NCBI GenBank assembly: GCA_036279355.1
Contig: DASUJH010000002.1
Location: 62,001-126,000, forward strand
DNA from: Gemmatimonadales bacterium
Lineage (GTDB): Bacteria; Gemmatimonadota; Gemmatimonadetes; Gemmatimonadales; GWC2-71-9
DNA length: 64,000 bases
Reading direction: 5' to 3'
Shown: piece after piece, positions 11,549 to 21,170 of the stretch
How the letters are laid out: each line of letters begins with the position of its first letter
How positions within the stretch are numbered: the stretch's first letter is position 1
Made by a program: the position numbers and the translations under genes
The notes under the pieces: generated by a model
The model's input: only the letters and a program-made list of their open reading frames with translations
Databases searched by the model: none
Told to the model about the DNA's origin: nothing

Positions 11549-11622
11549 GGGTCCGTAGCTCAGTTGGATAGAGCGCTTGCCTCCGGAGCAAGAGGTCGCG
11601 CGTTCGAATCGCGCCGGGCCCA
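11549..11622 (+). tRNA. tRNA-Arg (anticodon CCG)
   Basis: The cloverleaf can be drawn fully. The acceptor stem GGGTCCG pairs with CGGGCCC (one T-G wobble). The D arm is GCTC/GAGC and the anticodon stem is CTTGC/GCAAG with loop CTCCGGA, giving anticodon CCG for codon CGG. The T arm is GCGCG/CGCGC with loop TTCGAAT. The discriminator is A and CCA is not encoded. It lies 62 bp after the epimerase gene and is followed by a terminator-like hairpin. Confidence 0.97.
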
Positions 11623-14187: not shown

Positions 14188-15708
14188 ATGCGCTTGCTGC
14201 TCATACAGCCACCCCAGGGAACCCGATTCGGCTTCACCCGCATCCTCATGGTCGAGCCCCTCGGGCTCGAGTGCGTGGGAGCCGCTCTCAAGCTCCATGA
14301 TCACGAGGTGCAGCTCATCGACCTCCGCCTCGACCGCGCGTCGGCACTCCACTCGGCCCTCACCCGACGGCGGCCCGATGCCGTCGGCATCAGTTGCGGC
14401 TTTACCACCGACGTGTACTCGACGCTCTGGACCGCGCGGACGGTCAAGGCCACGATCCCCGGCACCCCCGTGTTCGTCGGCGGCCACCACGCCTCGCTGA
14501 TTCCCGGCGACTTCCTCTTCGCGGGCTCGCCAGTGGACGCGGTCGTGATCGGCGAGGGCGAGTGGACCGGCCTCGAGCTGGCCGACGCGCTCGAGCGCGG
14601 CGACGATCCCGCGACCGTTCCCGGCGTGCTCACGCTCGACAACCGCGCCAGCGGGTATAAGCAGCGCACCCACGCGACGAGCCTGGACGATCTGCCCCTC
14701 CCCGACCGCCGGCTCACGCTCCGCTACCGGCGCCGGTATCACCATGCCTTCGACACGCCGTCGGCCTGCGTCGAGACGTCGCGCGGGTGCCCATTCGACT
14801 GCAACTTCTGCAGCATCTGGGTCTTCTACCAGCGGCGCGCGCGGCGCCGGTCGCCCGAGCGCATCGTCCAGGACCTGGAGCAGGTGCGCGCGCTCGGTGA
14901 GGACCGGATCTTCTTCACCGACGACATCGCCTTTCTCCAGCACGACGCGTACGAGGAGCTGGGCCATCGGATCCGGGACGCGCACCTCCGGCAGCACTAC
15001 TCGTGTGAGACCCGCGCCGATCTCATCGTGCGATACCGCGACCTCTTCGCCCTCTGGAAGGAGGTCGGACTCAAGACGGTCTTTCTCGGCATCGAAAAGG
15101 TGGACGACAACGGGCTCGATGCGATCCGGAAGCGGACCAAAGGCGGCGCGGCGACGAACCTGGAGGCGATCGAGATCCTCCGGAGCCACGGCATCACCCC
15201 GATGACCTCGCTCATCACCGATCCCGCCTGGGGCGAGGAGGACTTCGACCGGCTGGAGGAGTTCCTGAGCCTGCTCGAGCTCCCCTGCCCGACCTTCACC
15301 ATCCTCACACCGCTCCCGGGCACCGAGCTCTGGGAAAGCCACAAGGACCGGCTCATCACCGACGACTACAGCCTCTTCGACGTGATGCACCTGGTGCTCC
15401 CGTCGAAGCTCTCTCCGGACCGGTTCTACGAGCGGTTTGCCGGACTCTACTGCCGCATGGACGCCAACGCACGCCTCACCTGGCCGGCCGTGCGCAACCT
15501 CACGAAGCTCGTGCTCGAGGGGAAGAGCTTTGCCGTGCGGCGCGTGCTCAAGGCCGCGCGCGAGCTGCGCGACCCCAAGTCGTTCCTGAAGTACTCGGGG
15601 ACGCATGCCCGGCCCGGGTTCGTGCCGTCGGGATTCGGCAAGGCGCCCTGGGTGGACCGCTCCCGCTCGTTCCTCGCGGAGCGGCTCGCCTCACCCGCGG
15701 CTCAGTGA
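14188..15708 (+). CDS. B12-binding radical SAM protein, HpnR/Grs-like
   Basis: A 506-aa class B radical SAM protein. The first 150 residues are a cobalamin-binding Rossmann domain (MRLLLIQPPQ, EPLGLECVGAAL, VFVGGHHASL, VVIGEGEWT). The radical SAM cluster is CPFDCNFCSIW (Cys201, 205, 208), followed by the SPERIVQDLE segment and a TIM-barrel domain (FFTDDIAF, CETRADLIVR, TVFLGIEKVDD). This layout matches hopanoid C3-methylase HpnR and the archaeal GDGT ring synthases GrsA/GrsB, which act on unactivated carbons of lipids, although many other families share it. GGAGG lies 9 nt before the ATG at 14188. It converges with, and overlaps by 7 bp, a tetraether-synthase-like radical SAM gene, which suggests a shared lipid-modifying pathway. 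That role is inferred. Confidence 0.85.
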   Translation: MRLLLIQPPQGTRFGFTRILMVEPLGLECVGAALKLHDHEVQLIDLRLDRASALHSALTRRRPDAVGISCGFTTDVYSTLWTARTVKATIPGTPVFVGGHHASLIPGDFLFAGSPVDAVVIGEGEWTGLELADALERGDDPATVPGVLTLDNRASGYKQRTHATSLDDLPLPDRRLTLRYRRRYHHAFDTPSACVETSRGCPFDCNFCSIWVFYQRRARRRSPERIVQDLEQVRALGEDRIFFTDDIAFLQHDAYEELGHRIRDAHLRQHYSCETRADLIVRYRDLFALWKEVGLKTVFLGIEKVDDNGLDAIRKRTKGGAATNLEAIEILRSHGITPMTSLITDPAWGEEDFDRLEEFLSLLELPCPTFTILTPLPGTELWESHKDRLITDDYSLFDVMHLVLPSKLSPDRFYERFAGLYCRMDANARLTWPAVRNLTKLVLEGKSFAVRRVLKAARELRDPKSFLKYSGTHARPGFVPSGFGKAPWVDRSRSFLAERLASPAAQ

Positions 15709-17561
15709 CAGCCGCAGCCTGACCCGCATCCCTCTCCGCTCGCACCGGGCGCCGCGTGCGCGTCGAGCAGCGGCAGCGCGCGCGACGGAAGGTCCATCGC
15801 CCGATTGCCCGCATAGATTTTGTGCCGGCCGCGCTCGTGGAACCAATCCTTCGTGTTCGCCACCATGTGCATGTTCTCCACGATCTGCCGCCAGCCCACC
15901 CCGGTGTTGTAGGCGCAGAAGGAGATCTCGCCCTCCTGCGTGGCGTAGGGGATCACGCACATCTCGGTGCGGCGGAAGTCGTAGGTCCAGAGGTCCTGGA
16001 ACCACATGCCGCCCACCCAGAGCAGCTTCCAGTCGGTGGTCGGCCGCTTGCCCGCCATGAGCGCACCGTTGGTCTTCCGGTTGAACACCTTGAGCAGGTC
16101 GATCACCGAGAGCCCCGCGGGCGCCTTCCGCTGGTCGAAGTTGCGCAGCAGTGCCAGCGCCACCTGCGTGAGCGTGGCCGAGGGGCCGCGCGAGGTGTCG
16201 CAGATGACGGCGACGTCCTGAACGAAGCGATCCACGTCGAAGAACTGGGTGACGGGCGCCCACGCCTTGGTCCGCTTGTTGGCGATGAGGAACACGCTCG
16301 AGCCGCAGTTCGGATGGCAGGAGCAGGACAGCCCGCCGAACTGGACCTCGGGCCCGCGCAGATGGTCCGCGAGCCAGGTGAAGGCGCCGAGCGAGCCCAG
16401 CGGGTACCAGTCGCGATACGGATCGATGCGCCCGTCGAAGTGCCGCTTGAGCTCGTGGGCCAGGTGCGAGATCGTGTAGCGCTGCCGCCGGCGATCCTCG
16501 TCGCTGATCCCCTCGTCGCGACCGGTGAACGAGACCGGCTGGAACGACACCGCGCTCATCCGCTCGCAGTTGTCGATCATGAACTGGAGGATCGGGCCCA
16601 CCTGGGTGTCGTTCACCGTGTTCACCACGGTGGTGACCGGCGTGATGTCGATGCCCGCCGCCGCCAGGTTTTCGATCGCCATGAGCTTGGCGTCGAACAG
16701 GTTGCTGATGTGACGGTGGCTGTTGGCCGCGTTGGTGACGCCGTCGAACTGGAAGTACACCAGGTCGAGCCCCGCCTCCTTGGCCTGGAACGCGAACTCG
16801 GGCTCCAGCGCAAACCGGATCCCGTTGGACGCGGCCTGCGTCCCGTAATAGCCCAGCTCCTTGGCGTAGCGGCAGGCCTCGAGGAAATGCGGTGACATCG
16901 TGGGCTCGCCGCCCGAGAACTGCACCGACATCTGGCGGCGGGGCTTGAAGGAGATCGAGTCGTCGAGGATCTGCTTCACTTCGTCCAGCGTGAGCTCGTG
17001 CACGTACCCCACCTGGTTCGCATCCATGAAGCACGGGTTGCACATCATGTTGCAGCGGTTGGTGAGGTCGATCGTGAGCACCGCGCCGCGGCCGTAGCGG
17101 ATGGTCGAGCTGCCGTGGCGGTGGATCAGCGCGTCGCCCGCGGTGGCGAAATCGCGGCCGTAGTAGCGAGCCTCGATGATCCGCTGCATGTCGGGGTCGA
17201 TCGAGAGCGTGTCCTCGAACTCCCCGTGGAGCGGACATCGCTTGCGCATGAGAATGCGGCCGTTCTCCTCGAGAATCGTGGCCTTGATCTCGCCCATATG
17301 TCCCTGCACCAGCTCGGACAGGTCGCGCTCGCCGGCGAGGATCGCGGTCCGGGTTTCCACCACGCAGCGCGGGCAGAGCGAATCGGTCTGCCGCGGCCAC
17401 CCGAGCGGCGGCTTGGAGCGCTGCCGAGTCTTGGGCAGCGGTGCCGGCGCCCAGCCCGGCTGGATCGACGCATGCTCAGGGATACGGGTGTTGACGGCCT
17501 GAAACGTCCCCCAGCCCGCGTTCGCAAGTTCCCTCACGGCCCCGGCCAGTAATTCATTCAT
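15702..17561 (-). CDS. Radical SAM protein of the tetraether-synthase (Tes/MSS-like) type
   Basis: A 619-aa radical SAM protein. An N-terminal rubredoxin-like module is visible: LCPRC (Cys63, Cys66) and RCPLHGEFED (Cys109). The radical SAM motif CNMMCNPCF (Cys170, 174, 177) comes next, then DANQVGYVHELT and FSGGEPTMSPH. Archaeal tetraether synthase has the same order: a CPxC...CPxHG iron site, then CxxxCxxCF(A)NA...GYxYE. Further Cys pairs occur in SCSCHPNC, and the protein ends in a Cys-rich tail (GCGSGCGCH), suggesting extra Fe-S clusters. A strong GGAGGAGG ribosome site precedes the ATG at 17561. It is the third gene of a minus-strand operon, 24 bp after a degenerate acyl-CoA-synthetase-like gene. 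Coupling of lipid tails is a reasonable hypothesis; another C-C bond chemistry cannot be excluded. Confidence 0.8.
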   Translation of the reverse strand: MNELLAGAVRELANAGWGTFQAVNTRIPEHASIQPGWAPAPLPKTRQRSKPPLGWPRQTDSLCPRCVVETRTAILAGERDLSELVQGHMGEIKATILEENGRILMRKRCPLHGEFEDTLSIDPDMQRIIEARYYGRDFATAGDALIHRHGSSTIRYGRGAVLTIDLTNRCNMMCNPCFMDANQVGYVHELTLDEVKQILDDSISFKPRRQMSVQFSGGEPTMSPHFLEACRYAKELGYYGTQAASNGIRFALEPEFAFQAKEAGLDLVYFQFDGVTNAANSHRHISNLFDAKLMAIENLAAAGIDITPVTTVVNTVNDTQVGPILQFMIDNCERMSAVSFQPVSFTGRDEGISDEDRRRQRYTISHLAHELKRHFDGRIDPYRDWYPLGSLGAFTWLADHLRGPEVQFGGLSCSCHPNCGSSVFLIANKRTKAWAPVTQFFDVDRFVQDVAVICDTSRGPSATLTQVALALLRNFDQRKAPAGLSVIDLLKVFNRKTNGALMAGKRPTTDWKLLWVGGMWFQDLWTYDFRRTEMCVIPYATQEGEISFCAYNTGVGWRQIVENMHMVANTKDWFHERGRHKIYAGNRAMDLPSRALPLLDAHAAPGASGEGCGSGCGCH

Positions 17562-17585
17562 ACTGCACCTCCTCCCCTCCCAAGT

Positions 17586-18737
17586 TCATGACAACTGCGG
17601 CGCCAATGCCGCGACGGCGGCGAGCCGGGCGGCGAGCGCGGTATCGAGCGGGTCAGTGGACGCGATCCACCGCACCCGATTGCCCAGGGTTTCACGCAGC
17701 CCGCTGCCGCTCTCGAGCGGCGGAGCGCGCCGTGCGGCGCGACCGAGCCAGCCGCGCCTCGGCTTGCGCTCGGCGTGAGCGCGCTCCACATCGGCGGACC
17801 GGCCGGCATCACGCGCCGCGGTCGCGAGCAAACGAGCGGGCGCGACGACGCGGGCGGGACGCAGCTCGGCCAGATGGCCCGCGTCGCCCTCGGCGGGCCC
17901 GAGTGCGGTCGTGGTGTAGCCGTCGCCCAGGCAGGCGTAGAGCGCGAGTCGGGCGGTGAGCGAGGCGGCCGGATCGCTCACGTAGGCGACGTCGCCGGGG
18001 TGGGCCGGGTCGGCGCGCCAGATCGCCGTGATCCGCTCGATCACCTGGCCTTGGGTCAGATCGATCCGGTCGCATCCACCTTTCGGCGACCTTCGGTAGT
18101 GCCGGATCGCGGGCCGCTCCGCGGGCAGAGCGCGGGCGGCGGCGCGGTAGGCTTGCGCCCGCTCGGGAGTGTCGAGCGTTCCGCCCAGCTCCAGCATCGC
18201 CTGGAGCGGGACGGTGCCCTCGCGCGCGGCCACGGCATCGATCGCCACTGGTTGGCCGTAGGCCGGCGCGCGTCCGTCGAGGCTCTCGAGCCGTTCCCGC
18301 GCGGCCGTCGACATGAACGTCACGCTCGGTGCCGCGTCGGAGAGCGCGGCCGCCAGCTCGTCCGCTTCGGCCCGCGGGTCGATCGCGACCGACACCGCGC
18401 CCAGGCCGAGCGCGGCGAGGTCGGCCACCAGCCACTCGGGCCGGAGCTCCGACACGATCGCGATGCGTTGGCCGGCCTCGACGTCGAGGCGTTCGCTGAG
18501 GTAGAGGGCCAATCGAATGATCTGGCGGTCGAGGCGCCAATCCGGCATGGCGCTCCACGCGCCGTCCGCCCACGCGAGCAACGCGCGCTCTCGTGCATGC
18601 TCGCGCATCGCCTGGGCGTGGAGCCGGTTCAGCGTGTCCGGTGGCTCGCGGAGCGGCGCAACCTGGCGCGCGCTCCCTTCAACGAAGAGTGAATCGAGGT
18701 AGGCCAGAAAGGCGAGGCCTTCGATCGGGACGTGCAC
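17586..18737 (-). CDS. Short, degenerate AMP-forming acyl-CoA-synthetase-like protein
   Basis: A 383-aa protein whose N-terminal half matches the ANL superfamily (long-chain acyl-CoA synthetases): WRLDRQIIRLALYLSE, IAIVSELRPEWLVADLAALG and LGAVSVAIDPRAEADEL are all in the expected order. Where the ATP-binding YTSGTTGxPKG loop should be, it has VAYVSDPAASLTARLALYA. It also ends about 200 residues short, with no C-terminal lid. It is therefore unlikely to activate acids on its own. The GTG at 18737 is preferred, with GGGAGGG about 10 nt upstream. It sits 4 bp after the 101-aa gene and 24 bp before the Tes-like gene. It could be a non-catalytic acyl-binding partner or a gene in decay. Confidence 0.7.
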   Translation of the reverse strand: MHVPIEGLAFLAYLDSLFVEGSARQVAPLREPPDTLNRLHAQAMREHARERALLAWADGAWSAMPDWRLDRQIIRLALYLSERLDVEAGQRIAIVSELRPEWLVADLAALGLGAVSVAIDPRAEADELAAALSDAAPSVTFMSTAARERLESLDGRAPAYGQPVAIDAVAAREGTVPLQAMLELGGTLDTPERAQAYRAAARALPAERPAIRHYRRSPKGGCDRIDLTQGQVIERITAIWRADPAHPGDVAYVSDPAASLTARLALYACLGDGYTTTALGPAEGDAGHLAELRPARVVAPARLLATAARDAGRSADVERAHAERKPRRGWLGRAARRAPPLESGSGLRETLGNRVRWIASTDPLDTALAARLAAVAALAPQLS

Positions 18738-18741
18738 TGGC

Positions 18742-19047
18742 TCACGTCCCTCCCGCCGGGGCGGCGGGCCCGTCGCGGGCGGTGAGCACGCGGTAGAGCC
18801 CCTCCGACCCGGAACCGCCGTGGAGCAGGCGGAGTACGACAGCGGTGCCCCCAAGCCGGGTGGCAAGAGCGGCACCGATGCCGTCCGTATCGGGCCGGCT
18901 GTCCTGCCGGGGCTCGAGCGCTAGCTGAATGGGCGCGCCCGGCTTAGCGGCGCGCGCGTACCACCAGACAGCTACCTCCGGGTGGGAAGGCGCCACATCG
19001 GTGACCGCCTGAATCACGTCCAGAATGGCTGGAGGCCGGCGAGGCAT
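18742..19047 (-). CDS. Uncharacterised 101-aa protein, first gene of the radical SAM operon
   Basis: I do not recognise this protein. It reads MPRRPPAILDVIQAV at the start, has a central HPEVAVWWYAR strand and a C-terminal GGTAVVLRLLHGG segment, and looks like a small soluble alpha/beta protein without signal or membrane segment. The ATG at 19047 has GAGGG 8 nt upstream. Its stop is 4 bp from the GTG of the acyl-CoA-synthetase-like gene, so the three minus-strand genes very likely form one transcript. Confidence 0.6.
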   Translation of the reverse strand: MPRRPPAILDVIQAVTDVAPSHPEVAVWWYARAAKPGAPIQLALEPRQDSRPDTDGIGAALATRLGGTAVVLRLLHGGSGSEGLYRVLTARDGPAAPAGGT

Positions 19048-19195
19048 CTTCAGTCCCTCACCAGTAGCACCGCTACATCCACCGCCACAGCCCAACTCCT
19101 GCCGTCCCAAATTGCTGCACGCCGCACGACCGAGGGAGTTCGGATCGCCCGGGCCCGCTGCGCTTCCGCTCGCGGAGCGCGCGAGGGGCCCTTGG

Positions 19196-19208
19196 CCACA
19201 TAATGTGG
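19196..19208. promoter_or_regulatory. Palindrome in the divergent control region
   Basis: CCACAT-A-ATGTGG is a perfect 13-bp palindrome between the divergent radical SAM operon and thioesterase gene. On the minus strand a TTGACG (221-226 of the 19.2-kb block, i.e. 19221-19226) lies 15-17 bp upstream of -10-like hexamers (CATTAT or TTATGT) inside the palindrome. A regulator binding here would therefore cover the minus-strand promoter. The regulator is not identified. Confidence 0.45.
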
Positions 19209-19311
19209 CGAGGGGGCATCCGTCAAGACCGGAGACCCGGATTGACGCCACCGGATGCGTCCCCAAGCTTTCGACGACATTCGACCACCGCCTCCCGGAA
19301 CGGAGCCACCC

Positions 19312-19803
19312 GTGACTCGACCCCGCCACGTGACCCTGCGCTTCCTGGCCGACCCCACCAACGTCAATTTCGGCGGGAAGGTCCATGGCGGCGCCGTGAT
19401 GAAGTGGATCGACCAGGCCGGATACACCTGCGCGGCGAGCTGGACCGGCGGCTACTGCGTTACCGTATATGTCGGCGGAATCCACTTCATCAGGCCCATC
19501 AAGGTGGGCGACCTGGTCGAGCTGCGCGCGCTCGTCATCTATACCGGGAAGACCAGCGTACATGTCGCCGTGGACGTCTACAGCCGGGACCCCAAGACGA
19601 CCGCGCGGCACCGGACCGGCCACTGCGTGATCGTGTTCGTGGCGCTCGACGAGAACGGCAAGTCCAAACCCGTGCCCCGCTGGGAGCCTGAGACCGAGGT
19701 CGATCGGGCGCTCGCGGCCTACGCGCTGCGGCTGATGGAGCTCCGCAAGTTGATGGATGCCGAAATGGAGAGCAGCCTGGCCCTGCAAGACCTGCCCATC
19801 TGA
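19312..19803 (+). CDS. Hotdog-fold acyl-CoA thioesterase
   Basis: A 163-aa hotdog-fold thioesterase of the YciA/BACH acyl-CoA hydrolase type, which cleaves acyl-CoA to free acid and CoA. The signature VNFGGKVHGGAVMKWIDQAG contains the catalytic Asp, and VGGIHFIRPIKVGDLVELRA is the second conserved block. Single-domain length is normal. GTG 19312 has GGAG 7 nt upstream and gives the usual short N-terminus; an ATG at 19255 would add 19 residues. It diverges from the lipid-type radical SAM operon, which is suggestive but not proof of a link. Confidence 0.85.
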   Translation: MTRPRHVTLRFLADPTNVNFGGKVHGGAVMKWIDQAGYTCAASWTGGYCVTVYVGGIHFIRPIKVGDLVELRALVIYTGKTSVHVAVDVYSRDPKTTARHRTGHCVIVFVALDENGKSKPVPRWEPETEVDRALAAYALRLMELRKLMDAEMESSLALQDLPI

Positions 19804-19855: not shown

Positions 19856-19890
19856 GCGTGTCGTTACTGAGGCGCGTGTCGTTACTGAGG
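19856..19890 (+). repeat. Tandem 17-bp direct repeat upstream of msrA
   Basis: GCGTGTCGTTACTGAGG occurs at 19856-19872 and again at 19874-19890, giving an exact 18-bp period. The copies lie 34 bp before the msrA ATG. Two in-phase copies could be operator sites for an activator or repressor, or a recent small duplication. Confidence 0.6.
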
Positions 19891-19923
19891 GTCGGATGTA
19901 CTTCTCTTCCAGCCAGAGCGCCC

Positions 19924-20577
19924 ATGAAGCCCATGATCACCGCCGTCCTCGCCCTCGCCGCCCTCGGATCCGCCCGAACTCCCCCCGCGGGCGGACCGGC
20001 GTCCGCCCGACCCTCGGGTTTGCCCGACACCCTGGAGACCGCCACCTTCGCCGGAGGCTGCTTCTGGTGCATGGAGCATCCGTTCGACCAACTGGAAGGC
20101 GTGATCTCGGTCACCTCGGGCTACACCGGAGGCCATACGAAGGATCCGACGTACGAGGAAGTGTCGGACGGGGGGACCGGGCACGCCGAATCGGTTCAGG
20201 TGGTTTACGACCCGAGCAAGATCAACTACTCGACGCTGCTCAACGTGTTCTGGCACAACATTGATCCGCTCACCTCGAATGCGCAGTTCTGCGACCACGG
20301 CACCCAGTATCGCTCTGCCATCTTCTACCACGGTGAGGAGCAGCACCGGCTCGCCGAGGCGTCAAAGGAAGCGCTGGACCAGTCGCATCGGTTCAACAAG
20401 CCGATCGTGACCGAGGTCGTGCCCGCCTCGACCTTCTACCCGGCCGAGGAGTATCACCAGCACTATTACAGGAAGAATCCGGTCCGCTATAAGTTTTATC
20501 GCTGGAATTGCGGACGTGACCAGCGCCTCAAGCAATTGTGGGGCAACGACGCGCCCAGCATGGAGGCAAGTCGATGA
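19924..20577 (+). CDS. msrA: Exported peptide-methionine (S)-S-oxide reductase
   Basis: A 217-aa MsrA that reduces the S-epimer of methionine sulfoxide in proteins. The catalytic motif [11 protein letters not shown] starts at about residue 43, and [24 protein letters not shown] and QYRSAIFYH are the other family blocks. The N-terminal 20-30 residues ([13 protein letters not shown]) look like an export signal, so repair probably occurs in the periplasm. A C-terminal Cys in WNCGRD may be the resolving Cys. Its stop overlaps the msrB start as ATGA, and the two enzymes together cover both sulfoxide epimers. The exact ATG at 19924 is chosen because it begins the signal-like stretch. The tandem repeat just upstream may control it. 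Confidence 0.93.
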
Positions 20578-21170
20578 AGCGGGTCGCGCTCGCGTTGAGC
20601 CTGCTGGCGGGATTGACCGCCACCGCGGCCGCGCAAACTCCGGCTGAGACACGGACACTGGCAACCGGCCACGCCGTGGCCGAAGGATGGAATGCGATGA
20701 ACTTTCACAAGCCCTCCGACACCGAGCTCAAACAGCGGCTCACGCCGGAGCAATACAAGGTGACGCAGCGCGAAGGCACCGAACCGGCCTTCCACAATGC
20801 GTATTGGGACAACCACGAGCCGGGCATCTACGTGGACGTGGTCTCGGGCGAGCCGCTCTTCAGCTCGCTCGACAAGTTCGAGTCGGGCACCGGCTGGCCG
20901 AGCTTCACCCGGCCGCTCGAGCCCAAGAACATCGCGACCCGCGAGGATCGCCATCTCTTCTCGGTGCGCACCGAGGTCCGGTCGGCCCACGCCGATTCCC
21001 ACCTGGGTCACGTCTTCGACGATGGGCCCAAGCCCACCGGACTCCGCTACTGCATGAACTCCGCGGCGCTCCGTTTCATCCCCGCATCGAAGCTCAAGGA
21101 AGAGGGTTACGGGGAGTACCTGCCGCTCTTCGAGCACCAGGCGACCGAGGTGAGCAAGGGAACGCAGTAA
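20574..21170 (+). CDS. msrB: Exported peptide-methionine (R)-S-oxide reductase
   Basis: A 198-aa MsrB that reduces the R-epimer of methionine sulfoxide. It starts with a clean signal peptide ([18 protein letters not shown]). Conserved blocks are [47 protein letters not shown] and the catalytic [11 protein letters not shown]. The two CxxC pairs that bind zinc in many MsrBs are absent, and the usual resolving Cys in SGCGWPSF is Thr. It therefore belongs to the zinc-free, single-Cys type that must be recycled directly by a thioredoxin-like donor. GGAGG lies 7 nt before its ATG, which overlaps the msrA stop. Confidence 0.93.

Follow-up and report, generated by a model that had tools for sequence, protein, structure and literature searches.

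Archaeal tetraether synthase (Tes, or GDGT-MAS; MJ0619, structures 7TOL and 7TOM, NCBIfam model NF045702) joins two lipid tails. Its metal sites comprise a rubredoxin-type iron bound by three cysteines and a histidine, an N-terminal auxiliary cluster held by C73, C77, C80, and a histidine, a radical S-adenosylmethionine (SAM) cluster, and, towards the C-terminus, a further cluster that has Met439 as a labile ligand (PMC9433317). A catalogue of 456 bacterial Tes homologues was drawn up by Zeng et al. 2022, who suggested that these proteins contribute to branched tetraethers (PMC8941075), a function described elsewhere as unconfirmed (PMC11868695). The published bacterial enzymes are Mss and Ger, a pair that gives ether-linked membrane-spanning lipids, and Acidobacteria of subdivisions 1, 3, 4, and 6 are known to contain iso-diabolic acid, in some cases carrying additional C5 or C6 methyls (PMC13274423). 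Here we describe a locus in a 64,000-nt window (the whole stretch of DNA analysed) of contig DASUJH010000002.1 from the Gemmatimonadales bacterium assembly GCA_036279355.1 (G000; 3.25 Mb, 60 contigs, 97.5% complete), in which a Tes-like radical SAM protein (P0002) is encoded downstream of a pseudo-acyl-CoA-synthetase (P0003) and convergently with a B12-binding radical SAM protein (P0001; Table 1). We read the locus, with a probability of roughly 0.55, as a variant cluster for membrane-lipid modification with a divergent Tes relative at its core, in which P0002 would couple acyl tails and P0001 would methylate them.

P0002 is a Tes homologue in both sequence and predicted fold. A PDB sequence search matched 7TOL (E = 7.4e-63; 1.6e-123 by profile), Tes being the only strong solved relative, and the best NCBIfam model is likewise Tes, at 316.2 bits against a curated cut-off of 450. 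An AlphaFold model built from 37 sequences (predicted local distance difference test score 83; predicted template modelling score 0.87) matches 7TOM in Foldseek over nearly the whole structure, with a template modelling (TM) score of 0.86 by target length, while the next match, MoaA, is confined to the radical SAM core. The two enzymes share the rubredoxin-type Cys3His site, the radical SAM motif, which in P0002 is accompanied by GYVHE at residues 185–189, and the C-terminal cluster region, where M519 and Y539 align with Met439 and Tyr459 of Tes.

Across the P0002 clade, the cysteines of the rubredoxin, radical SAM, and C-terminal sites hardly vary, whereas those of the N-terminal auxiliary site are absent throughout, with H147 and H149 fixed in their place. 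The first-pass annotation, made from the letters of the window alone, had ascribed a Tes-like N-terminus and motif order to P0002; this holds for the three retained sites but not for the N-terminal cluster. Loss of these cysteines is, by alignment, the chief departure of the clade from Tes, and the electron route may differ as well. P0002 further differs from Tes in an insert of ~22 residues in the rubredoxin site, an additional cysteine (C413), and an N-terminal extension whose predicted amphipathic helix (hydrophobic moment 0.34–0.43, and up to 0.58 in relatives) possibly contacts the membrane. At its other end, residues 605–619 (window 15702–15750) form a cysteine-rich tail (GCGSGCGCH), found in a minority of the clade and modelled with low confidence.

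Proteins that retain the N-terminal site occur in the same phylum. The f11 proteins keep C-x3-C-x2-C at this position, as does a canonical Tes from another class of Gemmatimonadota (locus L195), which scores 601.9 bits; since L195 passes the Tes cut-off and P0002 falls below it, the cut-off separates the two groups. In L195 (7302–14485) and L196 (8373–15644), a canonical Tes-type gene precedes a DHH-type gene, one encoding a 1032-aa BcrAD_BadFG (Ger/PlsA-like) protein, and a DUF2229-type gene, an arrangement that, judged by gene content, is likely an ether-lipid cluster and that resembles the published Mss and Ger pairing, a likeness drawn without Mss sequences. P0002 is homologous to the canonical proteins of both loci (34–38% identity over the core). 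Unlike these loci, however, its host genome contains no match to the Ger/PlsA-like protein of L195, the only ether-lipid gene or route searched for, and an ester-linked product is therefore predicted; PF01869 has one match in the host. In a quick tree with long branches, the P0002 clade forms a single branch separate from both f11 and MJ0619. Clustering of P0002 with a non-lipid radical SAM family, which the first-pass annotation had named as an outcome that would count against a lipid role, did not occur.

P0003 had been described as a degenerate acyl-CoA-synthetase-like protein, and closer analysis agrees. It matches the Pfam AMP-binding domain (59 bits, E = 5e-16), can be aligned to acyl-CoA synthetases along their N-terminal half, and in its model resembles the N-terminal fold of long-chain acyl-CoA synthetases of the ANL superfamily over ~300 residues (Foldseek TM ~0.6), although its C-terminus is poorly modelled. 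Unlike those enzymes, P0003 and eight homologues contain no TSGTTG ATP loop, YGxTE motif, later motifs, or C-terminal domain. All nine adjoin P0002-type genes, in three phyla (Gemmatimonadota, Acidobacteriota, and metagenome-assembled genomes (MAGs) labelled Myxococcota). The ratio of nonsynonymous to synonymous substitution rates among relatives is ~0.2–0.3, so P0003 seems to be maintained by selection; with the reading frame also open in nine genomes, a decaying pseudogene was rejected. Across 395 genomes of the phylum, a P0003 profile picked out four genomes with scores of 422–506 bits and two, with 121 and 137 bits, in which the contig ends within the gene. No other listed match exceeds 126 bits, and the ones inspected sit in long, ligase-sized reading frames. 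In three acidobacterial loci (L051, L055, and L063), P0003's place is taken by a motif-intact acyl-activating ligase ending 89–210 bp upstream of the P0002 homologue.

P0001 contains B12-binding (residues 22–127) and Radical_SAM (195–358) Pfam domains, an architecture shared with the hopanoid C-3 methylase HpnR. That family (TIGR04367) is its best NCBIfam match (343.6 bits, E = 1.5e-102, with most of the model covered), yet the score falls short of the curated 650, whereas a true HpnR from the phylum (L204) reaches 787.5 bits. The matches of P0001, P0002, and P0003 to these families all lie beyond chance, and the earlier view that both radical SAM proteins have lipid-modifying relatives stands insofar as HpnR and Tes are their best families, although neither protein reaches the curated cut-off. 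Because a search of the host genome turned up no squalene-hopene cyclase (both G154 and G156 have the gene), P0001 probably acts on a substrate other than a hopanoid. The score and the missing cyclase led us to reject P0001 as a true HpnR; it was also rejected as Gms, a SPASM protein whose paper mentions no cobalamin or B12-binding domain and from which P0001 differs. Relatives at 60–74% identity are encoded in six other genomes of the phylum; at a threshold of at least 59%, close relatives are found in 7 of the 395 genomes, including the host, and in 1 of 396 Acidobacteriota genomes.

Cyclases are known among B12 radical SAM enzymes, and instead of a methylase P0001 might be a GrsA-like or BchE-like enzyme that forms rings or oxidises its substrate. 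The BchE model ranks second (150.8 bits), but HpnR, a carbon methylase, leads by a wide margin, and we regard a cyclase or oxidase as possible though unlikely.

A scan of 84,980 species genomes yielded 80 kept P0002-related loci (52–74% identity) from Acidobacteriota, Gemmatimonadota, Latescibacterota, Calditrichota, KSB1, and Myxococcota, along with single MAGs labelled Planctomycetota and Acidimicrobiia, although MAG labels can be in error. Members are frequent among MAGs named gp4, gp6, Pyrinomonadaceae, and Vicinamibacteria, which, beside the acidobacterial record of iso-diabolic acid, speaks for a lipid role. P0002 itself is placed within a 17-row multi-phylum group of the clade tree. Among the 80 loci, lpxA lies within 6 kb in 17, lpxD likewise in 17, and lpxB in 7; an inositol-phosphate synthase lies nearby in 6 and an acyl-activating ligase in 7. 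The weaker lpxA matches may be hexapeptide-repeat cross-matches to lpxD, and the lipid-gene neighbourhoods were probably inherited from a small number of ancestral layouts rather than having arisen independently. A ChaC-like gene (gamma-glutamylcyclotransferase fold) also recurs beside Tes-like genes (L201 6807–7295, L046 8280–8819, and L047 1771–2265), occupying the place of P0004.

The lpxA, lpxB, and lpxD neighbours, which characterise a large acidobacterial branch, would fit an enzyme that acts on lipid tails by another reaction, such as desaturation, crosslinking within a chain, thiolation, or changes to the acyl chains of lipid A in the outer membrane. We consider this doubtful for P0002, which retains the C-terminal cluster residues proposed to hold the coupling intermediate, including the equivalents of Met439 and Tyr459.

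Within the phylum, P0002 matches of at least 50% identity occur in 7 of the 395 genomes. A close P0001 is present in all four genomes with a close P0002, P0003 is found only where P0001 also occurs, and all three genes come together in two genera. The first-pass annotation had looked to related genomes for co-occurrence of the radical SAM pair. None of the 150 further genomes sampled from the host's order has the cluster; they show no P0002 gene, only weaker radical SAM matches. The pair is kept, however, in a different order, in a second genus from another family of the same class. There (genus g88) the order is a reversed P0001, a ChaC-like gene, P0003, and P0002, so the linkage has survived rearrangement. 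The chance of the P0001 and P0002 overlap at genus level is ~3e-4, a value based on two lineages only.

The genes could nevertheless be chance neighbours, with P0001 serving a separate task. One P0001 relative (L182, in G282) is on a 3.4-kb contig without other cluster genes, and another (L202 7742–9226, 59% identity, in the gp22 acidobacterium G171) is unlinked to the P0002-clade gene of that genome, which is on another contig. Since most P0002-clade loci also have no close P0001 relative nearby, P0001 is an optional partner of the clade. Given the rearranged linkage in g88 and two further g88 assemblies in which P0001 and P0003 lie together at a contig end, chance proximity appears improbable. 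A non-lipid substrate for P0002, such as a peptide or cofactor as in SPASM-type or TrsS-type relatives, is more improbable still, as the second-best NCBIfam model, TrsS (198 bits), falls far below Tes and the 7TOM match extends beyond the radical SAM core.

In the lipid-modification reading preferred here, P0002 would take two membrane lipids into a Tes-type hydrophobic site, where the 5'-deoxyadenosyl radical would abstract a hydrogen from an unactivated tail carbon. The resulting radical would be parked as a carbon–sulfur bond on the C-terminal [4Fe-4S] cluster, an intermediate proposed because of the Tes precedent (PMC9433317), and the held tail would then be joined to a second one, giving a long two-headed chain of the diabolic-acid type. 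P0003 would probably act without catalysis, either holding an acyl chain or serving as a docking partner for P0002, and P0001 would be a cobalamin-dependent methylase placing a methyl on an unactivated carbon of the same lipid. What the analysis itself establishes is homology, fold, conserved metal ligands, the missing N-terminal cysteines and P0003 ATP motifs, and gene linkage; from these we infer the substrates, the reactions, each functional role, and a membrane-spanning lipid as the product of the cluster.

Several observations weigh against this reading. P0002 does not have the N-terminal auxiliary cysteines, and a very long branch lies between it and Tes, so its reaction may differ from that of Tes, and our literature search found no reported activity for any member of its clade. 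The clade also extends to Thermoanaerobaculia and Holophagales MAGs; the cultured survey, so far as it is cited in PMC13274423, has iso-diabolic acid only in subdivisions 1, 3, 4, and 6. P0001 is missing near most P0002 relatives, and only two genera of the phylum have all three genes. Finally, the search for ether-lipid genes in the host was confined to Ger.

Table 1 Features of the P0001–P0005 locus; positions are those of the 64,000-nt window.
Feature	Positions	Strand	Evidence
P0001, B12-binding radical SAM protein, 506 aa, sister subfamily of HpnR	14188..15708	+	Pfam, NCBIfam, phylum relatives
P0001 CX3CX2C radical SAM cluster motif CPFDCNFC, residues 201–208	14788..14811	+	sequence
P0002, Tes-like radical SAM enzyme, 619 aa	15702..17561	-	7TOL match, profile, AlphaFold model, Foldseek
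P0002 C-terminal auxiliary cluster region (C413, C415, C419, M519, C535, Y539, C549)	15915..16325	-	cysteines invariant or nearly so
P0002 radical SAM cluster motif CNMMCNPC, residues 170–177	17031..17054	-	invariant in 81 sequences
P0002 HxH (H147, H149) at the position of the Tes N-terminal auxiliary [4Fe-4S] cysteines; Cys triad missing	17115..17123	-	alignment; ligands from PMC9433317
P0002 rubredoxin-type iron site, second half, C109 and H112 (CPLHG, residues 109–113)	17226..17237	-	80/80 sequences with data
P0002 rubredoxin-type iron site, first half, C63 and C66 (CPRC, residues 63–66)	17364..17375	-	80/80 sequences with data
P0002 N-terminal amphipathic helix, residues 2–24, in an extension absent from 7TOL	17490..17558	-	model; hydrophobic moment
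P0003, pseudo-acyl-CoA-synthetase, ANL N-terminal part without ATP and catalytic motifs	17586..~18737	-	
P0004, 101-aa protein of unknown fold; homologues precede the same operon in two Myxococcota-labelled MAGs	18742..19047	-	
P0005, hotdog thioesterase, divergent from the operon	19255..19803	+	

The gene layout is largely as the first-pass annotation had drawn it. The two radical SAM genes, each present in a single copy in the host genome, lie where it had placed them and carry the motifs it listed, and their stop ends share 7 bp (15702–15708). On the minus strand, P0003 begins a few bases past the stop of P0004, and P0002 follows after 24 bp, preceded by a GGAGG-type ribosome site; these short gaps and the ribosome site make P0004-P0003-P0002 a plausible operon, in line with the earlier description of an ANL-like protein and a 101-aa protein encoded together with P0002. 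Codon-position GC content is consistent with real genes throughout, P0004 being the weakest case, and a scan of 15400–19400 for promoters and terminators gave none. The predicted thioesterase is indeed divergent, but none of the 80 related loci has a homologue nearby, and it was rejected as a cluster member. Beyond it, adjacent genes resembling peptide methionine sulfoxide reductases MsrA and MsrB are recognisable by sequence motifs at 19858–21170. A tRNA-Arg (CCG) gene at 11549–11622, ~2.6 kb from the cluster, is a possible integration point for this patchily distributed cluster.

P0002-like proteins may well be among the homologues of Zeng et al. 2022, given the thresholds of that study. In a literature search whose coverage left out many subscription papers, we found no description of a clade without the N-terminal cluster, of a pseudo-ligase partner, or of a methylase for membrane-spanning lipids. 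As a long shot, the P0002 clade, combining a Tes core devoid of the N-terminal cluster with an acyl-binding pseudo-ligase, might be the unrecognised maker of iso-diabolic-acid-type membrane-spanning lipids in subdivisions 4 and 6 of the Acidobacteria as well as some Gemmatimonadota, with P0001 as the cobalamin-dependent methylase that sets the methylation read by the branched glycerol dialkyl glycerol tetraether (brGDGT) palaeothermometer in some producers. Behind widely used temperature proxies stands the question of which bacteria produce branched membrane-spanning lipids and by what enzymes the tails are coupled and methylated. To that question the locus brings a separable Tes subfamily defined by a clear metal-site difference, a possible partner protein in the form of a pseudo-ligase, replaced by an intact ligase in another lineage, and a candidate methylase.

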